From: Isoetes taiwanensis
Lineage: Eukaryota > Streptophyta > Lycopodiopsida > Isoetales > Isoetaceae
Length of the DNA stretch: 64,000 nucleotides
Direction: 5' to 3'
NCBI GenBank assembly: GCA_021234155.1
Contig: JAJEKV010000014.1
Span: 4,357,563-4,421,562 of the forward strand
Shown: positions 20,060 to 50,826 of the stretch, in pieces
Layout of the letters: every line of letters starts with the position of its first letter
Position numbering within the stretch: the stretch's first letter is position 1
Translations under genes and position numbers: made by a program
The notes under the pieces: generated by a model
Seen by the model: only the letters and a program-made list of their open reading frames with translations
Databases searched by the model: none
What the model was told of the DNA's origin: nothing

Positions 20060-21742
20060 TTAGCGTCATTATTCTAGAATGGGACTCGCAAGAAACCAAC
20101 AAAACCGCCCCAACTACCCACGAAAAATAAAGGGAAAATCCAATTATATCATTTGGACCCCAAAAAATACAATGCTAATAGATGTGTAAAAAGGCTGCCC
20201 TATTATGTTGTAGTAGTGAGGGGTGAAAGTGATAAGCCTTGACGGTAGCAAAAAAGGCATAAAATCCTCCCCCAAACCCCGTGGAGAAGTTCGGAGACCC
20301 TTCATACGTTTTTTCCACATCACCAACAAACAAAGTGAGACAACACAAACATACCAGGGGATAGCATCACCCAAGGGGTGGAAAAAACATCCTTCAAATG
20401 GAAGAAAAAAACATGATAAACAGAAATTTGTGCCAATACAATAAACAAAGAAGGGGAGGGTGGGTTCAAAGAGAATAAAATGACTGGCGAGAGGACCCGA
20501 TGAGATGTTGCTTAACTTTAAAATTTGTAATTTGAAAGGGCATCGCGCATGCATGCATGCAAGACATTTGCTACCCCATCCTAGAATGTCAAATGTCTCG
20601 GATCGAGAAGAATGGGGCTCGCGTGAAACCAACAAACCGCCATTACCTCTAGTATTCCATCAAACTCAAATCCAAAAACTATGGTGAATGAAGGTTAAAA
20701 ATCCGAGGCCGGACATGCCACAAAAATAGAATTCCAAATGATGCCAAACCCGGCGGGAAGAAGCCCCTCCCATGCAAACAATCCAAAGAGAATAAAGCTT
20801 ATGGTGCTTCTCATTCATCTCGTTTTTAATGGTGGGCTTGGTATTTCTTTCACACATCCTACCCACGAAAAATAAAGGGAAAATCCAATTAGATCATTTG
20901 GACCCCAAAAAATACAATTCTAATAGATGAGTGGCTGAACCGCCGAGGACTTATCATGCCTTAAAAACCCGCCCTTTCTATCAAAAACCCTAGTGTGATA
21001 AGCCTCTCAATTTCGAACAAGCGGATGTGATATCGCTCCCAAAACCCCGCGTAATATAATGAGGTTTGGGACACCAATGGTGTCATTCACCAACACATCC
21101 AAACAAGAAAAAATAAGGCCGATAGCATCACCCAAATGGTGAAAAAAGAATCACCTAATTGAGGAAAAATATGATAAACCGGACTTGTACAAGATATAAA
21201 CAAAGAGGGTTGGTTCAAGAATAAAGTAGAAGAAGAGGAAGGAAGGATGCGATTTCCTTTTATTTCGCATTCAACAAGCGGGCATCGGGCCATGCATGAT
21301 CCAAAAATTTCCCATTCTAGAATGGGTCAATCCGATGTCACCGGATCGATGCGATTCTAGAATGGGACTAAAAAGAAACCAAAAAACCGCCGACTACCTA
21401 TTCGAAAACAAGGTCAAGGGTGAACCCCGCGGGGCCGAAGGCCAAAGGCCAGGATAGCAAGAAAGACAAAATTGGCTAAACCCGGGCAGGAAGAACCCCT
21501 CCCCGCCTCGAAACAATTCAAAGAATAAAAGCATTGCGAAGAAAAGCCAGCCTCGCGGGATGCGGCTTCGCGCTGAAAAAATTAGAAGGAGGTTGTCATT
21601 CAGCGCGCGTGTGCATGACATCAATGTGTCCCATTCTAGAATGGCGATCCGATGTATGGGAAAAATATTTTTACAGGCCCTTTGAAAGCATGATCCAAGA
21701 TTTGACACTATACGGCGAAAAATGCCCTATTATTTGTAGTAG
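20060..21742. repeat. Nested repeat block with CATTCTAGAATGG motifs
   Basis: A ~70-bp segment starting ACCCACGAAAAATAAAGG is present at about 20115 and again at about 20860. The palindromic ATTCTAGAAT recurs near 20073, 21322, 21352 and 21635, usually followed by GGGACT and AAACCAA...AACCGCC. No coding sequence is supported. The block looks like several overlapping or duplicated non-autonomous element ends. Confidence 0.55.
20194..20218. mobile_element. CACTA-like right terminus
   Basis: The plus strand ends ...CCTATTATGTTGTAGTAGTG, which reads CACTACTACAAC on the minus strand, a typical CACTA-superfamily terminus. A near-copy with the same downstream GAGGGGTGAAA ends at 21744. I could not find matching left ends, so the extent is unknown. 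Confidence 0.4.
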
Positions 21743-28093: not shown

Positions 28094-28117
28094 AAGCATG
28101 CGTCCGGACGCATGCTT
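28094..28117. repeat. 24-bp perfect palindrome near the right end of A1
   Basis: AAGCATGCGTCC is followed immediately by its reverse complement. It lies 27 bp inside the right terminus and is preceded by further AAGCATGC copies. It may be a transposase-binding or structural subterminal site. Confidence 0.85.
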
Positions 28118-41056: not shown

Positions 41057-41100
41057 AACAAGGTGACGGATCAATCGCACTAATGACCTGTAGTGCGATT
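41057..41100. repeat. Left terminal inverted repeat of B with internal hairpin
   Basis: The terminal 34 bp match the right end. Just inside, AATCGCACTA (41073-41082) and TAGTGCGATT (41091-41100) form a perfect 10-bp stem. At the right end the matching zone instead contains two direct copies of ATTAGTGCA (50780 and 50799). Confidence 0.9.
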
Positions 41101-41631
41101 GCGTCCAAAAAAGATTCCTTTTTCAAAAAACCCCAAAATTTGGTACTTTTGGCATATCTTAAGAAAACATTTAGATAAACGGTCCTTTGACCTTAAAAAA
41201 AGTGCATTTTTTAGAACAAACAAACAAAGTACAACATTTATAATTAAAAGGAGGTTGTTTTTGGTAGTATTTTAAACGCTTTTGCACTTGACCTGGGCGC
41301 ACATACACACAAACACAATACTAAGAACAGTTAGAAGCATCAAAGAAATTGCAAAAAATGATACAAGGCCAAAATATGATGTAAAATAGATAAGAATGTC
41401 TATGCGCGCATAGACATGCACCCTGTTTAAACAAGCCACATTTTAAAAAAGTCATCATTTAAGTGCAAATAATGATACAAGGGCGTTTTCATCCAAAGTG
41501 TAGTTTAAAGAAGAAAGGCATGTCTATGCGCGCATAGACATGCTCCCCTTTTTTAACAGACGATTTCTTTTTCAAAGTCAATATTTAAAAATAAATGTTA
41601 TTTTTTTCAGTTTATAATCAGACACACAATT

Positions 41632-44600
41632 TTAAATGTCATGGGGGACCTCCTTATCATTAAGGGGTTCATCATCGGAAACATTGTGTTCTTCACCGTT
41701 GTTCGGATCCGTTTCTTCCTCCTCTTCCTCTTCCTCTTCCTCTTCCGGTTGTTTTTCCACCTCAGGTTCTTTATCTACCACTGGCATCAACTCAACATAC
41801 TCCGCTTGGTGATCAGTGTTGCCTGATGCAGGCATCTGTGGCTCTGAACTGCTTATTCCTGCTTGATCGCCACCGTCCTTCACACCCACTTCTTGTTTCT
41901 CATCAGGCAAGTTCATTAAAGAACATATCCTGGACTTAATGAAAGCAACACTATCAGAATCATACTCCACTGCAACACAGTTACGACCCTTCCTCAAAGC
42001 ACATGAAATGGTCGTGCCAGAGCCCGAAAATGCATCCACAACCCAGTCTCCTGGTTGTGAAAACATTTCCAGAAGCCTGTTGATTAGCTGCTGGGGCTTC
42101 TGGTACGGGTTGACAATGCGACCCTGGTGAACTGGGTCGGTCAACTTCTGTGTAACTGCAGGGAGGTGGAAGACATTTCGGTAGTCCATTCCCTGTGTGT
42201 TGTAGTGTTGTAAGGTCCTGGTGCCTAGTGTGCTGTGGTAACCGATGTGAATCTGTTCAAATACGTTTATAAGTCTAGCACCCCCACCATGGCCACGGAT
42301 GTTGGTCTTCACCCTGTAAAACAAATGAAAGAAGTCAGAGACAATTACGGACACCAAGTTTAAAAGAGATGCAGACTTACCATATCGCGGTTCGAATCCA
42401 AAGATTGCAAGTGTTCCTTCAAATAAGGCTTGAACCAAGCCGGCTTGGTTGGTGGAGTGAAAGACAACGATCCTCCACAAAGGTGCTGTGTTTAGCTTTA
42501 CCAGCCGTTTGACAAAAGAGTCAAACTCTGCGTACTTAAAAGGCGCGTCGTCACCTCGGCTGTCAGGCAACTTAAACCCGTAGGGTATGTCAGCAATGAT
42601 CAAGGAGTAGTCACCAGGTTTCAACACTCTGTCTATCTTCACACAATCCCCCTGGTAGACTTGGTAGAGACAGTGGTGGCCAAATTCATCAAAATTCTCA
42701 AAAGCATCCGGTACAATCGCCTGATCGGCCTCTTGTACCCTTTTCAACTTGGCTCTTTCATCTTTTGCTTGCTTCACCAAAGTCAAGAAACCTGGTGGTA
42801 CCGGGTCTTTTTTTCTCTGCAAGATAAAAAGAAAGTGAGTACACTGCAACTCCATGCGTGCATGGCAAGGCAGCATCAAGTTTGCTGTGCACGCACAACA
42901 AAGATTTAGTTTTGTCCATGCGCGCATAGACAAAACTGAGGTTTTGCTATGCACGCATAGCAAAACCTAAACTTTGTCAATGCGCGCATGGACAAAACTA
43001 AATCTTTTGCCGTATGCGTGCATAGCAAAGACTTCGGCTTTTGTCTATCGCCAAGATAGACAAATGGTAAGATGCAAGATAAAAAGCAAGCAAATACTTA
43101 CCCAGTTAGTAAAATTTGAGGCAAATTGTTTTATCTTCTCATCGGACGAGGAAATAGGGTACAGCTCCTGAACTTTTTCCCAAGTGTCGCAATTTAAATG
43201 GAGCATTAGTTGTTGCTAGTTGTAGCACAATCTTTTTTGCTGCAAAAAATGATGTCGATCACACAGACAAAACCTACAAATGTAAGTGACAGAGTACTTA
43301 CTGTTTAAACTCGTGCTGCATTTCTTCTAAGGTGAACTGCCCGTCGACAACTTTTTGCAGAACCTCGCAAACTTTGTCCATGTTTTTGAGGCCCTGCATT
43401 TCCCTCCAAGGCATCACACTCATATCCTTTTGTTTGGAGGGCTCTCCCCTTTTTCTTTTTGTCTCAGGCTTCTTCCCCTTTGTCTTCAAGGTACCGTCCG
43501 CATACATATCAAAAATTTTCTCCTGCAGATCCCAAATCTGTGGTGCACACACAAAAAAGATTGAGTGTCTATGCGCGCATGGAGTAAGGTGAGATTCAAA
43601 CACAACAACTAGGGAAACTTACCCGGCCGTGCCTGAAGGCTAGCTGAAACAGATTGTCGTATTTAATCAATGAAGTCCTGGCATCTTTTTGATCGTAAGT
43701 CAAACAACACTCAATTGCACATTGCTCCTTTAAAGCGAGATAAGCGTCTGGATCATCCTTTATGTCTTTCTTTCCGGGGTTCTCTGCCCTATAATTATCA
43801 TATTCTCTGTGCATAAATTTAATTTTATCTGGCAAGCTCATGCTCAACCTGTAGTCGTTGTCTACGTTGTGGCTCATAGCAAGCAGTTTTGCTTCAGCGT
43901 CAGTTACACCAACGTAGACGACAGCGTAGAGAGATGAGAAGATTGCTTGCTTGAGTTCTTTCCAATTCTGCCTTTTTGCCTTAAATGTGTGTGTTCCACC
44001 AATCACAATGTACATGTAATTGTCAGCCTCTTCTTTCTTAAATTCTTCCAAGGTTTTATAGTACTTAGGGTCGACAATCACTATGTGTGGGGACACAGTT
44101 GCATTCGACCTGGCCCTGATTCTCTCTTTTAAGGCCGCCAGGTGGTTCGGATAAATCTTTCTTACCTGCAATGACCTGTTACCCTGAGGATCCTTTGGGC
44201 ACAACTTCACTCTATCAATCTGTAAATGCATAATGCCAGGCACCCGGCACCTCTTCTCAATGTCCTCCAGCATTTTGGAGGCCTCGTCCTTGCCCTTTGA
44301 GGCTATCTTCGTGCCGGGTCCTTGGGGCAAGTTACACTTCGAAGACTCCCCCTTTTCTGACTTCTTCGGCTTCCCCTTGACTTTGAATTCAGGCTCTGTT
44401 CCGGTCACAATGCTTGCTTTCCGCCAGTCCGCTGCCGTCTTTTTTTTCTTCTTTTTTGGCAAAACCAGTTCTTCCTCCTCCGAACTCTCCGTCTGTTCCA
44501 CCTCTTCTCCCTTTGGCTCTACCCCTTGCTCTACATCTGGATCTACCTCTGGCTCTACCTCTGGCTCTACCTCTGGCTCTCCCATTTCTGCTTCACCCAC

Positions 44601-45600
44601 CGCCTTTGGGTTCAAGAGTGGATCCTTGCACTTAAGCATCAGGTTCAAGTTTTTACGACAAGATCCCCGCAAAAAAAGTTAGAAAAACCCTATGCGCGCA
44701 TAGACAAACAAAAGTACTTACCTTTTCTTGCTTGAAACAAGCCTGTATGAATTCTTGGGCGTTCTCATTCGCGGACATACTCAGTCTAAAAAACATCGGG
44801 TCAACTAAGTACGTGGTGTCTTCTCCCTTTACGGTGGTGGTGATCGTTATTGTAGCCATGCCGAAAAGTTGAATTTCGGTGATTCTGCCACACTTCTTAA
44901 AATCTGATCCGGTCAACTTCGACTTTGGCAAGGAAGATTTCGTGGCAATGTACAGATACACATAGTGCCGTGTCTGGGGATATTCACCACCTCTAATGAT
45001 TAACCATTGACAGTTCCTACAGAAGAGAGAACCGCCATCATTGCGGGTCCACGCTTGCGGTGGTAAAGGTAGGGAGCTTCAGGAGCGGCACATCCTCGAG
45101 AAGGCTTTACGCCTTTGGGTTTCTTCCTCTGAAAATATAAAGTACAAATGAGTCGAAAAATAAAGAATGCTACAAAACAAAAGCGAGACTAAGTAAAGAG
45201 TGAAAACAAAAACATAATAAACCTATGCGCGCATAGACACACTAGGTTGTTGTCTAATGACAAGTAGACAAAATACCTATTGTGTCTATGCGTGCATAGA
45301 CATAAATGGTTTTTTGTCTATGCATGCATAGACAAAAACCTAGGGTATCTATGCGAGCATAGACACCTTAAGTTTTTGTCTCTGCGTGCAAGGACAAAAA
45401 AGAATTGTGTCTATGCGCGCATAGACACAACACTAGCAACTACCTACATATTTGCCTAAAATACAAAAATATACGAACAAATATCTAAAAAGTAGTGCAA
45501 CTAACCTATTTTTCATTTTCCACACAAGCTAACAACATCTAAAAAATGCAACAAACTAATTCTAAAAATAGGCAGGAAAACCGTACCTTGAACCTGCCAT
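41632..45600 (-). CDS. ParB-like domain plus beta-class N6-adenine/N4-cytosine DNA methyltransferase
   Basis: Multi-exon gene. Exon 1, 45600-45587 (MAGS); exon 2, 45126-44722, with FCRNCQW and a frameshift near 45045; then an acidic linker exon to 43623, holding a ParB/sulfiredoxin-like domain (VIGGTHTFKAKRQ near 43990). Short exons 43537-43302 and about 43214-43101 follow, then 42816-41632, interrupted by a 63-67 bp intron near 42314. The last exon has methyltransferase motif IV as DIPYG (42591-42577), NPYQKPQQLINRL, and motif I DAFSGSGTT (~42036-42012). Motif IV before I defines the beta class of amino-methyltransferases acting on adenine N6 or cytosine N4. An acidic tail ends in VPHDI. ParB-methyltransferase pairings are known from phages and bacterial mobile elements; introns and location argue against contamination. 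Confidence 0.85.
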
Positions 45601-45814
45601 TTCAGCGAGTGCTATACAGAGTTGTATGGAGATGTTCTGCAAACTTGGGAGAAGAGAACTCGAAGGCGAAGCGAGGCGGAGCGGCTGGCGCCTAGAAGCA
45701 AGGTATCTATGTGAGAAATTATTTATACTCCGTATTCGTAGTTGCAGTTTTCGTATGGAAAGATACATGGACCGTATATTTTTTTCCCATGGGGTTGCTT
45801 ATAGTACTAGTGCC

Positions 45815-46030
45815 GTCTATGCGCGCATAGGCAACTGAGTAGACTTATGTTTATTTACTGAACCTATGCGTGCATAGTATTTGTTTCCTAATCCCATGCG
45901 TGCTTAGGATTTGTTTAGGCCATCTATGCGCCATAGATAGGCAACTGAGTAGACTTATGTTTATTTACTGAACCTATGCGTGCATAGTATTTGTTTGCTA
46001 ATCCCATGCGTGCTTAGGATTTGTTAAGTG
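45815..46030. repeat. 110-bp tandem duplication in the divergent promoter region of B
   Basis: GCAACTGAGTAGACTTATGT occurs at 45831 and 45941, and each unit carries a CTATGCGTGCATAG palindrome and CCCATGCGTGCTTAGG. The block lies between the start of the methyltransferase gene and the first plausible transposase exon, where a shared regulatory region would be expected. Confidence 0.8.
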
Positions 46031-46164
46031 GAATGTATGGGATTGCTCAGTGGATTGTCAGTGGACTTGCTTGTTAGCAACCGTGCCGAAGTTTTTATTC
46101 TGTACAAGTAAGTCTTACACAAGCTGCTTTTGTCTTGCAGCAAAACATGTCGACACGGTGATCC

Positions 46165-49100
46165 ATGTTAAGCCGAAGTCCACGACATTTTGTTTTAGCT
46201 TGCACGGTGGTAAGTTCTCGCTCTCCCTCACCTCCACAAGACATTACAAATCGTGGCAAGAATCCTCAAGAAGAAATGGAGGAGTCTCCGCCCCCCGCAC
46301 ATTTGATCCGCCCCTCTTCCACATTTGTCACTCCTTCACCCACTCACATAATACGCCGCCGTGTAAATTTAGAACTCCTTCGCCAAAAACTTTCCACCAA
46401 GGCAAATATTCTCCATCTCCTTCATCGCAGGCACTGAAAATGGGAGGTCCTTCTCTTTTTGATACACCTTCTCCTTTACAAGGAGCACATCAACCCCGTG
46501 TTAGCCCGGGGCCCACAGCTCTACCTGCGTTCCCAGCTGCCCCTGAAAAAGTGCAGACTCATTGCCTCCATTCGCCGCAGTGCCCACCATCTTCGCGAGA
46601 TCGGTGCGGGTGGATTGGGGAGCCCCGCCAGACAAAGCTCTGTCGCTTTGTCAAACGGGTGCCATTGAGGATGAGTCTCACACTTTCCGAAGTTGCCCAA
46701 ATTGGGTCAGTCCGGGGCGCCAGCACGCTCCCTTAGTGCGGCTGGACTTGCCCTTGCATTTGCGATGAACACACCGTCGATCGTGCCCGGGGGTCGCGTA
46801 CATTCAGAGAGGTAATCTTGGACTGCGAGGTCACATTTGCCCCCGCCTGGCTGCCCGCTAATTAGGCACTACGGGTGTGGTGTATGACTATATATATTTG
46901 GGTGTTTCTGCATTTTATATGTTAGTCAGCAGGCTGATTGCTGCCACGGTTTTTCCCTCGAAAACCCTTCCGGGCGGGGTTTTTAACCCGGCAAAATCCG
47001 CTTTGTCGCTTTTTGTATTGGGTCCCATAGACCGATTGGTCTCCGTGGACGATAAAAGTACCTTCCTTCCTTCCTTCCTTCCTTCCTTTTAAGGAGCTCG
47101 AACAAACACTGGAGGATATTTCGCGTTACGCTAGGCAGATTCCACAACGAAGTAAGGGACCTTCTCTGGCAGAGAGGGTTGAAGAGGAAGATATCTCCAC
47201 GCTGAGAAGAAAAAATCAAGGACACTATTTCCACGGTCATTCTCCACTTTGCTCAACCTAATTAAGTGACGCCGAGGTTCGTACACCAGCCGTCATAACA
47301 AGCGAGTACCACAAGAGAGCCCTCCTTTGCAAGATCTAGCTTTTAAGAATCCCTACAAAGCCAGAAAGAGATTTAAAAGGGATCCTTTAAAAAAAGTTTT
47401 TCGTACAGTGTTACGGAACAAGCTCATGGGCTTGAAATATCTGAGGCCTTTAAGGAGGCTAACCTGTTGTCAGAAAAAATGTTTGCAGTCCTTCACATTT
47501 TCTGCCATAAGGAACGCAAGGCATAGCTTTCACATCAATGACCGGGGTGACCAGAAGCTTACCCTCGCTATTAACGCCGCCGAAGACGGAGACAACTTTT
47601 CTTACTACATGATGAGGAAAACTGTTTGTCAACTAGCTTTCAAAAGCATACATGCCTTAGGTAGCCGGCGAATGGCTAGAGTGCAGAAACGCTTGGATTT
47701 GAATCCACGTATTGATGACTACTGTCACCCAAAAAAAATAGTTGGCATGTACTGTTTAGAAGCGAAGGCTTGGCTTGTGGATTTCTTTGACAAGAATTGC
47801 GAAAGGTTGCCAAACAAATTCGGTTTATCATCTAATGGATAGCTTTTGCAAGAAAGAGGTCTATTCCTTGTACAAAGATCTCTTCCGTGCTTGGGACGAA
47901 GTTCATTTCTTACTCCTACTTCCTTCCGGTTGTGGAAGCGGAATTTAACCTCGTTAGGATTCAAGAGACACAGTTTTCCGTCTGCGCGCCTCGTTCTCTT
48001 TTGAAGGAGAAGAGATCTCGACTAAGGTTCCCGCAGAGAGAAGTAAGTACCCACGTTCATGTTTACCTACACGCACAATCAATGTTTTCATCGATCATGC
48101 TGGCTTAGTCAAAAAATCAATCTTGTCTATCGCGCCGATAGGGAAGAGTGTTTTTGTCTATGCGTGCATGGGCAAAGAAACAAGGTTTGCACCCGGTTGG
48201 TCTTCATGTCCACTTTCGAGCAAAGTGTCCTGTCTATGCGGCGCATAAGCATAGGACACCGATTTTAGCGATCTGTTTAAGTAAACCGACAAAGCTTCTC
48301 ATTTTGTTGCTTGATCAAATTTCGCGAAGACTCCAAGAGCACGAGAGGCTCGGGTTTAGAGAGAAGGAAACTTGCGAAGCATCGAAAAAAATCAAAACAA
48401 TCTGGAGAAGCCATTACAGTATATGTCTGTTGTGATTGATGGCATGGACCAGAAAAAGACAAACCTGTCTCACTTTGTGAATGTTCCTAAAGAGTTACCG
48501 GAAGCGGATTTTTTGAGGTTGCATTTAGTTGGCGCCCTGATTTTTAATTGTGGTGAACTGCAGAGTTTACTTGACTTACCCAAACATTCATGGTGATCCT
48601 AACCTTCTTGGACAATTCTTAACAAGATATTGTCGGCAAAAGAAAAGCTACCTCCGGTTTTTTATGTGCAAATTGGACAATACCACCGGAGAAACAAAAA
48701 CCGTGTATTCTTTGCTTTACGTGCTATCTTTGGTAGAGCTTGGCATATTTAGGAAGGTTAAAGTGGGCTTTCTTCTAGTGGGTCACACACATGACCAGAT
48801 CGACCAGATGTTCAGTCGCTTTTCGGTGAGACTCCGCAGAAAAAAAGCTTTCTGTCTTGACTCCTTGTTGGAAGTGATTGAACAATCTTACAATCCAGAA
48901 CCGGTTATCGAGGTCTTAGCCGAGACTATCGATTTCCGTGAATTTGTTTTTCAAAAACAGTCTACTTCAGGTCCTGCCATCCACCCGCTAAATAATTTGA
49001 CATTTCAGCATCATGTCAAATTCAAAATTCGCAACGGGAAAGCTTGTCTTCAAGGTAAATACTTTGTAACCTCCAAGTCCTGGCTGCCTGAACCAGGGTT

Positions 49101-50036
49101 GGAGTACCTTAAGTTTATCCCAGACGTTACAGAAATGAAAAGAGCTTTGCAGCAGCCCCTAAAAAGTTCCATTGACTACACCAAAAAGAATCCAGCCAAG
49201 GATCCCTTTGTCTCGCTGGCCAACATGGAGAAAAACATACGGTTGGGATTTAAGTACTTCAGTGACGTAGACAAACGCTGGTGGGAAGACTGGTTTGAGG
49301 TCATGACAGATTTAACAAAGATCTTGAAGAGCACTGTCTTAGAGGTTCCCTTTAGATGGCCTTGTAGTTGGCCGTCACAACCTGTTCAAATTCCACAGGA
49401 AAGTGCAGTCGGGACTGCACTCCCCAGCCTGGTGAATAACAAAGAACCTGACCGTCAAATGTATTTAGGGGCGAGAAAAGCAGTAAAAAAGAAAGTCGGT
49501 CAAACTCCAGAAAAGCTTGCAGACTTACAAAAGGACATGTTAATAGCAGTCCCTTCAACAGATGACGATGAGGAGCGTCCTTTCTGGATTGCAAGGGTCA
49601 AAGATATTACCTACAAAGATAACCTTCCTTCCGGTTGTAAAGGTTCACCGGTATGCCACTAAGGCTCTGAGATCCATATACTGGTAGATATGATCCTCAA
49701 GTCGTTCCTGTCAAGAAGGGAAGGAAAACAATGAATAAGAATCACGTGGATGATGTCAACTTGAATGAAACAGCTGTCCTTGCCTACGACTTTACTTTGA
49801 GGGTTGATAATAAACTTCGCAGCACAACAGTTACATTGTTGAAGGAACAAATCGAGGACAGCTCGGACGACACTGAAGAAACTGAGGAGCCTACTTCGTC
49901 CAGTTCTTCAGGCGAACCAACAGAGGGTCCTAGTAGTGGAGATGAAGAAGGAATCGATGAGTATGACGACGTTCCTGATGAAGCCACTCTCGCCGATTGG
50001 CAGCGCGCTAACCCTGGCAAGAAGCTGCTATTGTAA
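46165..50036 (+). pseudogene. DUF7869-type transposase of element B
   Basis: N-terminal pieces lie at 46165-46437 and 47091-47260, separated by the nested LINE. 47327-47842 carries the segment CQLAFKSIHALGSRRMARVQ. About 47840-48060 continues with VYSLYKDLFRAWDEVHF. The RNase H-like core gives IDGMDQKKTNLSHF (48432), then, in 48550-49662, KLDNTTGETK (48669) and GHTHDQIDQMFSRF (48781); these hold candidate acidic catalytic residues and are hallmarks of DUF7869 proteins of plants, algae and animals. The C-terminus (FWIARVKDI, then 49731-50036) is acidic. Frameshifts near 49640 and 49690 and between the main frames, plus the LINE insertion, suggest an inactive copy, although some gaps may be introns with palindromes. 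Confidence 0.75.
46487..47090 (+). mobile_element. Nested 5'-truncated LINE fragment in B
   Basis: AAGGAGC flanks both sides (46480-46486 and 47091-47097), a 7-bp target duplication. The body starts within ORF2 (NPVLARGPQLYL), includes the zinc motif with EDESHTFRSCP, and keeps the 3' hairpin (46937-46998) and the GGGTCCCATAG...GTGGACGATAAAA tail. It ends in a CTTC microsatellite. It is the same family as 4990-7562. The insertion is younger than the element B copy that it interrupts. Confidence 0.85.
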
Positions 50037-50792
50037 AGGTGTAAATTTGTAGTTACATTCCTGCTATGCACGCAGAGGCTTTAATATTTTTGTACGTAAG
50101 TTGTTTGAAAAGCAAGCAAGACTTTTGATATTTGTTGTGATACACTCTTGCTTTGCGTGCAAAGCTTGTGTAAACTTTGTAATGATGTTGAATATTAAAC
50201 AAAAAGACCTTTTGGAGTACTTTTTTTATTTTCATTTGCTGAAATAATTTTTTTGTCTTGGACTGTCTATGCGCGCATAGACATTTTATCTTAAAGTTTG
50301 TTCCAGGCTTGGTGAATGAACTCAGACAGTGCCTTCTTTGCAAGCTTTTTAGATCTTAAGTGAAAGAGATTCAAGCTCGTACAGCGTTTCGAGTGATTTG
50401 TATTATTTTTTGGTATACCAAAAAATTTCTAACTGGGACTGTCTATGTGCGCATAGCACCTTGTCTCCCAGGTTTTTCTAGGACTACTAACGGAACCTGT
50501 ATTTTTCCTTTTTTGCTAGCTTTTAAAAGTTGTACTAGCTAAGATTCCAACTATTTTTTTTTTGTTGATTTCTTGTCCGTGCTAACTTCCCCAAGTTTTT
50601 TTTTTTGTTTTTAGGACACCCAAAAATGGTGCACGGAAAGTAAAAAGAACAGCATTTTTTAATAATTAGACGCCAAAAAGAGCACCTGTTAACTAAATTT
50701 GTAGTCTATTTTTTTGAGTGACCCCCCAAAAGTGGTCGAATTTAAGGGAATCTTAGGGAATCTACAAAAGATGCTTTTTATTAGTGCAATTG

Positions 50793-50826
50793 CAGGTCAT
50801 TAGTGCATTTGATCCGTCACCTTGTT
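50793..50826. repeat. Right terminal inverted repeat of B
   Basis: The reverse complement begins AACAAGGTGACGGATCAA and continues in register with the left end, with two mismatches at positions 19-20 of the repeat. It is followed by AAGA, the target duplication. Confidence 0.9.

Follow-up and report, generated by a model that had tools for sequence, protein, structure and literature searches.

The lycophyte Isoetes taiwanensis carries, within a 64,000-nucleotide stretch of contig JAJEKV010000014.1 (the window, taken at its full length), a 9.8-kb transposon with terminal inverted repeats (TIRs), here called B, whose non-coding parts hold more than twenty palindromes of about 20 bp. The question raised by this locus is which factor such palindromes address. 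Two palindrome forms, M1 (CTATGCGCGCATAG) and M2 (AGTGTATTCCGGAATACACT), have been found to alternate with the clade of the methyltransferase encoded by the element. The best reading, drawn by analogy with the VANC motifs of Arabidopsis, is that each form would serve the ParB-like/methyltransferase product of its own clade as a site by which the element is recognised. The element and its genes are as follows, the exon borders and the start at 45600 of the left gene being read from splice-like junctions:

41057..50826, no strand: TIR transposon B, 9.8 kb, termini AACAAGGTGACGG.../...CCGTCACCTTGTT
41632..45600, minus strand: left gene with introns, comprising a ParB-like exon and methyltransferase exons
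about 43623-44672, minus strand: ParB-like exon of the left gene (weak profile resemblance)
about 43301-43540, minus strand: further exon of the left gene
about 42376-42820 and 41632-42312, minus strand: methyltransferase exons of the left gene (PF01555)
46050..50037, plus strand: right gene remnant with broken frames and a DUF7869 region at 48562-49059 (PF25273, E 1.9e-32)

Distribution of the palindromes in the window and in the genome

With a core match defined as CTATGCNNGCATAG with up to two mismatches, the window contains 24 core matches, all of them within B, against 1.86 expected (standard deviation 1.36; maximum over 100 shuffles, 6), which bears out the initial annotation's count of more than twenty. 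When up to six mismatches to the perfect 20-mer TGTCTATGCGCGCATAGACA are allowed, 17 sites are found in 64 kb, all 17 within 41397-50459; at seven mismatches, where chance matches start, 26 of 32 sites fall in that interval. The four perfect copies claimed earlier have been confirmed at 41397, 41521, 45408 and 50264, and both variants then quoted exist, at 42942-42965 and 43040-43064. Introns, the stretch upstream of the left gene, the divergent region and the neighbourhood of both element ends all contain sites. None of the 19 window sites with at most one core mismatch overlaps an exon as delimited, in agreement with the non-coding placement first proposed (introns, divergent promoter and both subterminal regions), and over 14 loci a single site of 133 falls in a matched exon. 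Some dyads extend to 28-36 bp. The palindromes, none of which is assigned a strand, are distributed as follows:

41397..41416: perfect 20-bp palindrome, subterminal, 3' of the left gene
41521..41540: perfect 20-bp palindrome, subterminal, within a dyad of 26 bp in all
42852..43064: array in the intron that separates methyltransferase exon 1 from the next exon, made up of five core matches (42852, 42916, 42947, 42978, 43012) and the variant 43040-43064; last four core matches spaced 31-34 bp
43566..43585: palindrome in the intron adjoining the ParB-like exon
44687..44706: intronic palindrome upstream of the ParB-like exon
45220..45427: array (45223, 45286, 45318, 45349, 45380, which is weak, and 45411) lying upstream of the larger exons of the left gene, with a 31-32 bp register from the second site on and the perfect 20-mer at 45408
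45814..46020: five core matches (45817, 45864, 45894, 45974, 46004) in the divergent promoter region, partly tandemly duplicated
48155..48174: palindrome in the right half of B
50061..50167: pair of degenerate palindromes (50064, 50151) on the 3' side of the right gene
50264..50283: perfect 20-bp palindrome, subterminal
50440..50459: degenerate palindrome, subterminal

Across the genome (1,658,258,908 bases in 1110 contigs), the perfect M1 20-mer occurs at 184 places and M2 in 1925 perfect copies, each against 0 for the reversed control. In six two-ended elements, 67 sites lie in the 37,025 bp inside and 0 in the 76,480 bp outside. Twenty loci around the first listed 20-mer places, a sample that is not random, have also been examined. 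A recognisable terminus is present in 18 of them, and the remaining two (L022 and L023) nevertheless share sequence with terminus-bearing loci. No match to the element's proteins was found in 14 of the 20, and three of these gene-less loci (L006, L009 and L019), with both termini and a length of 2.6-3.6 kb, bear seven to nine sites each. The earlier statement that the palindromes are confined to B holds for TIR elements, as far as tested on the six, and is too narrow for window-type B copies, since related families and gene-less derivatives carry palindromes too.

The arrays keep a common register. Among neighbouring exact asymmetric M1 sites (66 of 252 places), 32 of the 36 distances of up to 260 bp measure 40-43 or 80-84 bp; among M2 neighbours, taken from the first 50 of 1925 places, 11 of 17 measure 41-42 or 83-85 bp. 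For the symmetric M1 form the distances were 52, 52 and 124 and no others, and the window arrays are mostly spaced at 31-32 bp. One helical turn separates 31 from 41-42 bp, which suits cooperative binding on one face of the DNA, but other spacings occur as well and many arrays share a common descent. The common register is real, and exact helical phasing would be a conjecture. A first trial of such phasing, which comprised 8 distances after de-duplication, 6 of them of at least 25 bp, is not trusted. Array units are near-identical in two loci (L028 and L036), and in a third (L027) core matches appear by eye to be kept across an array with differing spacers. The suggestion that sites spread within the element is supported, for tandem duplication, by arrays in the 40-43 bp register.

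The palindrome switch between methyltransferase clades

The window methyltransferase exon matches PF01555 (N6_N4 DNA methyltransferase) at E 6.7e-17, with 62.6 bits against a curated cut-off of 26.7, and the clade-2 methyltransferases described below also exceed this cut-off (66.0 and 67.7 bits). The CcrM model NF050803 is matched at E 1.9e-14 and 53.4 bits, far under its equivalog cut-off of 830, with one exon scored. Judged from these profiles, the left gene product is an N6/N4 DNA methyltransferase that is CcrM-like only. The exon has at least 150 relatives in the genome (150 scored of 2761 candidates). Clade 1 was defined by at least 65% identity to the window in one methyltransferase exon and clade 2 by 59-64%, a border set after seeing L030 (64%, M2) and L031 (66%, M1-like). 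Both clades are split with support 100 by a long branch of an unrooted tree.

Twelve of the 150 hits (L025-L036) were chosen by methyltransferase match and spread by identity, not by motif, except that L027 and L034 were taken partly because no perfect 20-mer was listed nearby. M1 or an M1-like form is present in 7/7 clade-1 loci of this set, while the five clade-2 loci all carry M2 and none carries M1; with the window and L007 added, nine loci have M1 only, five M2 only and none both. A further comparison covered the 38 of 150 hits whose contigs have complete lists for both M1 forms: an exact M1 20-mer (TGTC..GACA or TGTC..GGCA) is present no more than 6 kb from 12/18 clade-1 and 0/20 clade-2 methyltransferase hits (Fisher p 6.9e-6), with the window's own copy among the 12. 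Conversely, exact M2 lies within 6 kb of 3/3 clade-2 and 0/2 clade-1 hits on contigs C1-C97. Both palindromes occupy matching places, namely the upstream region and the intron that follows methyltransferase exon 1 or precedes it, towards the next exon; of the loci with both of these exons identified, this intron contains M1 in 6/7 (the miss being L025) and M2 in 4/4.

A third clade was sought through a PF01555 search, and the two loci followed, picked for an odd match range, proved to be clade-2-like: clade 2 is their nearest group, and the palindrome in them is M2, mostly degenerate in L037. By eye, six of seven PF01555 hits on C1-C97 have a listed M2 within 2 kb, the seventh being L037. The introns of L031 and L032 hold degenerate M1-like sites with altered centres (CTATGATGGCATAG and similar), which may represent M1 decayed at CpG or else a third form of the motif.

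Clade-2 elements also bear another palindromic structure (TTTGAAACGGGAGT...ACTCCCGTTTCAAA in L030, at 205-240; about 2772-2808 in L026 and about 253-290 in L029), located some 550 bp from the methyltransferase exon on its 3' side, perhaps where the element ends.

Candidate partners of the palindromes

Unrelated palindromes in matching places, exclusive to their clades where tested, together with the retention of M1 in gene-less copies, point to a trans-acting element protein whose specificity has changed. It is rather probable that such a protein binds and marks the DNA of its own family by means of the palindromes. In this proposal, an element-encoded protein, most likely its ParB-like part, would bind each dyad in dimeric form, the spacing within arrays corresponding to roughly three helical turns (31 bp) or four (40-43 bp), and the methyltransferase would mark the promoter, introns and ends of the element, either to regulate it or to protect it against silencing by the host. 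Sites would multiply within the element by tandem duplication and be replaced as a whole when the protein specificity shifts, so that each protein clade would have its own palindrome; gene-less derivatives would retain them in order to be acted on in trans. The initial annotation had named the ParB-like protein and the methyltransferase as candidate users of the palindromes, and the M1/M2 switch with clade, with 0/14 loci carrying both, argues in favour of this suggestion. A more tentative idea, for which the chances appear well below even, is that a captured bacterial ParB-like/adenine-methyltransferase module provides a private epigenetic label: the protein would write a base mark of bacterial type at the palindrome arrays of its clade, each lineage would read and keep up the mark on its own copies alone, gene-less ones included, and new lineages would arise when the protein and the roughly twenty palindromes of an element switch jointly.

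The closest way of working has been described in Arabidopsis. VANC motifs are short, occur in introns, intergenic and terminal non-coding regions, have been multiplied by tandem repetition, and differ between VANDAL sister families together with the element-encoded protein (PMC5735166; PMC10398659). Transposon B resembles this system in the concentration of an element-specific motif in non-coding parts (the inside and outside counts given above) and in a motif that changes with the element protein, in this case in a single switch. On the other hand, VANC motifs measure 8-9 bp and the word palindrome is absent from the text available of PMC5735166, whereas the sites of B are dyads of about 20 bp; moreover, the candidate protein of B is ParB-like plus CcrM-like and its host is a lycophyte. 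The two systems are proposed as analogous only; that the encoded protein binds the motif and removes silencing marks, a further trait of VANC-type recognition, would be a supposition for B. The closest protein, matched by description, is that of the Ectocarpus element Sola1-1_Ec32, where a ParB-like plus N4C/N6A methyltransferase gene lies on the strand opposite the transposase, as the left gene of B lies opposite its transposase candidate, and where binding and marking of the protein's own transposon has already been suggested (PMC12477816). That element belongs to an algal host and not to a vascular plant, and the parts of PMC12477816 consulted name no target motif and its main text lacks the word palindrome, whereas B has defined palindromes. 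Among the titles and abstract openings listed from the open-licence literature, no palindromic targets for such ParB-like/methyltransferase proteins were found. A third parallel is the bacterial ParB-parS pair, in which a ParB domain goes with a palindromic site, as the ParB-like exon and the palindromes of B may do. The inner 16 bp of M2 (TGTATTCCGGAATACA) have TGT..ACA ends and a CG centre, as in the parS consensus. B differs in showing no sign of a partition function, in its many arrayed sites per element and in a ParB homology that is marginal.

Two proteins with two palindromes yield one specificity prediction, and the suggestion made in PMC12477816 becomes testable with a countable target. 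If true, the proposal would supply a second, seemingly unrelated example of VANC-like self-recognition in land plants, and would link a DNA methyltransferase of bacterial type with specific sites in a plant. How far adenine methylation extends in plant genomes is disputed.

Several observations weigh against recognition by the ParB-like/methyltransferase product. The ParB assignment of the upstream exon is weak: the window exon matches phrog_723 at E 0.21 only, that of L030 had no match in PHROGs or NCBIfam, Pfam profiles gave no ParB match for the element proteins, no sequence relative was found in the PDB, and a structural model (predicted local distance difference test, pLDDT, 54, from 4 sequences) had no fold match at E<=0.001. 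The clade-2 exon of L026 matches TIGR03764 at E 9.4e-5 (22.2 bits against a cut-off of 143.75), phrog_1033 at E 0.005 and phrog_723 at E 0.28, a better match being phrog_30771, of unknown function (E 0.00085). Six of the 18 clade-1 hits have neither exact M1 20-mer within 6 kb. Only one clear motif switch, from M1 to M2, has been seen, so that the co-divergence is a single event; a third motif, CTATGACGTCATAG, proposed from L031 and L032, was dropped when its inferred perfect form gave 5 genome copies and its control 1. Spacings of 26, 28, 34-39, 45 and 47 bp misfit helical phasing, and TTGC..GCAA arms pair beyond independence, which a plain dimer site does not need. Finally, the switch was scored by methyltransferase clade only, and the transposase may be the partner instead.

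The DUF7869 right gene is a transposase candidate, and this last possibility, in which the palindromes would be binding sites of that protein with no methyltransferase link, is the main rival. Subterminal repeat arrays are found in DNA transposons, for example the TnpA sites of En/Spm. Sites at both subterminal regions of B, and their retention in gene-less derivatives with the same termini, are in keeping with such a role, and tracking by clade does not tell the transposase and the methyltransferase apart, since they travel together. The densest arrays are nonetheless internal, in the intron and the upstream region and not at the ends, and this explanation is considered unlikely. Functionless spread by replication slippage, template switching or tandem duplication would account for the near-identical array units of L028 and L036 and for the duplicated block 45814-46020, and template switching could symmetrise the arms as well; it fits poorly with the near absence of sites from matched exons (1/133), with the replacement of M1 by an unrelated palindrome in the same intron of clade 2 and with core matches kept, by eye, where the spacers of L027 differ, so that little probability is given to it.

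Equally improbable is that the symmetry itself is selected, through hairpins in RNA (acting in splicing, stability or small RNAs) or in extruded DNA, an idea that draws on the intronic position of many sites, on the dyads of 28-36 bp and on the claim that the arms co-vary. This claim holds in part. Outside the core, the arms of clade-1 sites are slightly more complementary than shuffled arms (z 3.4-6.1, for 39 to 116 non-redundant sites depending on threshold; about 0.42 against 0.32 per pair at the strictest), and an earlier run with all copies gave 3.54 against a mean of 2.93, the largest of 2000 shuffles being 3.56. In the genome counts, which include array duplicates and copies of copies and are not independent events, TGTC..GACA occurs 184 times, TTGC..GCAA 17 times and their hybrid 18+15 = 33 times, a positive association of the TTGC and TGTC arms (odds 184x17/16.5^2, about 11). 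Other results speak against the claim: TGCC..GGCA occurs 13 times and the asymmetric hybrid TGTC..GGCA 127+125 = 252 times, above the symmetric TGTC..GACA and the commonest form counted (odds 0.15, a negative association of the TGTC and TGCC arms), clade-2 arms show no clear covariation (p 0.04 to 0.89), and the core dyad is conserved throughout in a fixed sequence. On the transcript strand, a slight excess of G-U (69 cells against 47 of A-C, p 0.05, with 199 other mismatches) would favour RNA pairing, but at the innermost pair the counts are 18 and 19. Selection on an RNA hairpin, one of the possibilities raised initially, thus has no clear support from these counts, and the shared 40-43 bp register, the subterminal and intergenic sites and the gene-less copies also speak against hairpins.

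Copy differences, classification and minor observations

In four copies (L008, L010, L013 and L018), the centres of the palindromes depart from those of the window. Similar messy patches run through the coding sequence of these copies, breaking frames, and the rate of differences within 1 base of CG/CHG is raised about 4- to 5-fold, transversions and indels included. The published assembly was made from nanopore plus Illumina reads and polished (PMC8566536). Given the coding-sequence patches, the CG/CHG rate and the nanopore assembly, the variability of the centres is taken as probable base-calling error at methylated CG/CHG, and hypervariable centres as footprints of cutting and repair were rejected on the same three grounds. 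The four copies were left out of the non-redundant arm-covariation test and retained in the all-copies run and in the first phasing trial; L008 was retained in the inside/outside site count, and L025, which seemingly has such patches, was kept. Errors of this kind break several copies and call for caution in repeat studies on this assembly.

B is flanked in the window by a 4-bp duplication, AAGA, and by eye a clean 4-bp duplication is present in five of the six two-ended copies (the window, L006, L008, L009 and L025, not L019). Duplications of 4 bp are a stated feature of Sola2 elements (PMC3627910). B has this target site duplication and TIRs in common with the Sola superfamily, a combination that is not Sola-specific, and it is not filed there, as its right gene is known by the DUF7869 match and not by comparison with Sola transposases. 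When a protein search was made with joined exons, none of the scored candidates was a relative at E<=0.001. The right gene of B is interrupted, by eye, by an insertion resembling a short interspersed nuclear element with a TTCC-repeat tail (about 46590-47090).

Other palindromes occur elsewhere in the window. A cluster of palindromes like CCATTCTAGAATGG spans 20069-21645, with perfect copies at 21312 and 21631, one with 1 mismatch at 21352 and two, at 20069 and 20576, with 2 mismatches; near this cluster no match to a methyltransferase or to ParB was found. A lone perfect 24-bp palindrome, AAGCATGCGTCCGGACGCATGCTT, lies at 28094-28117.

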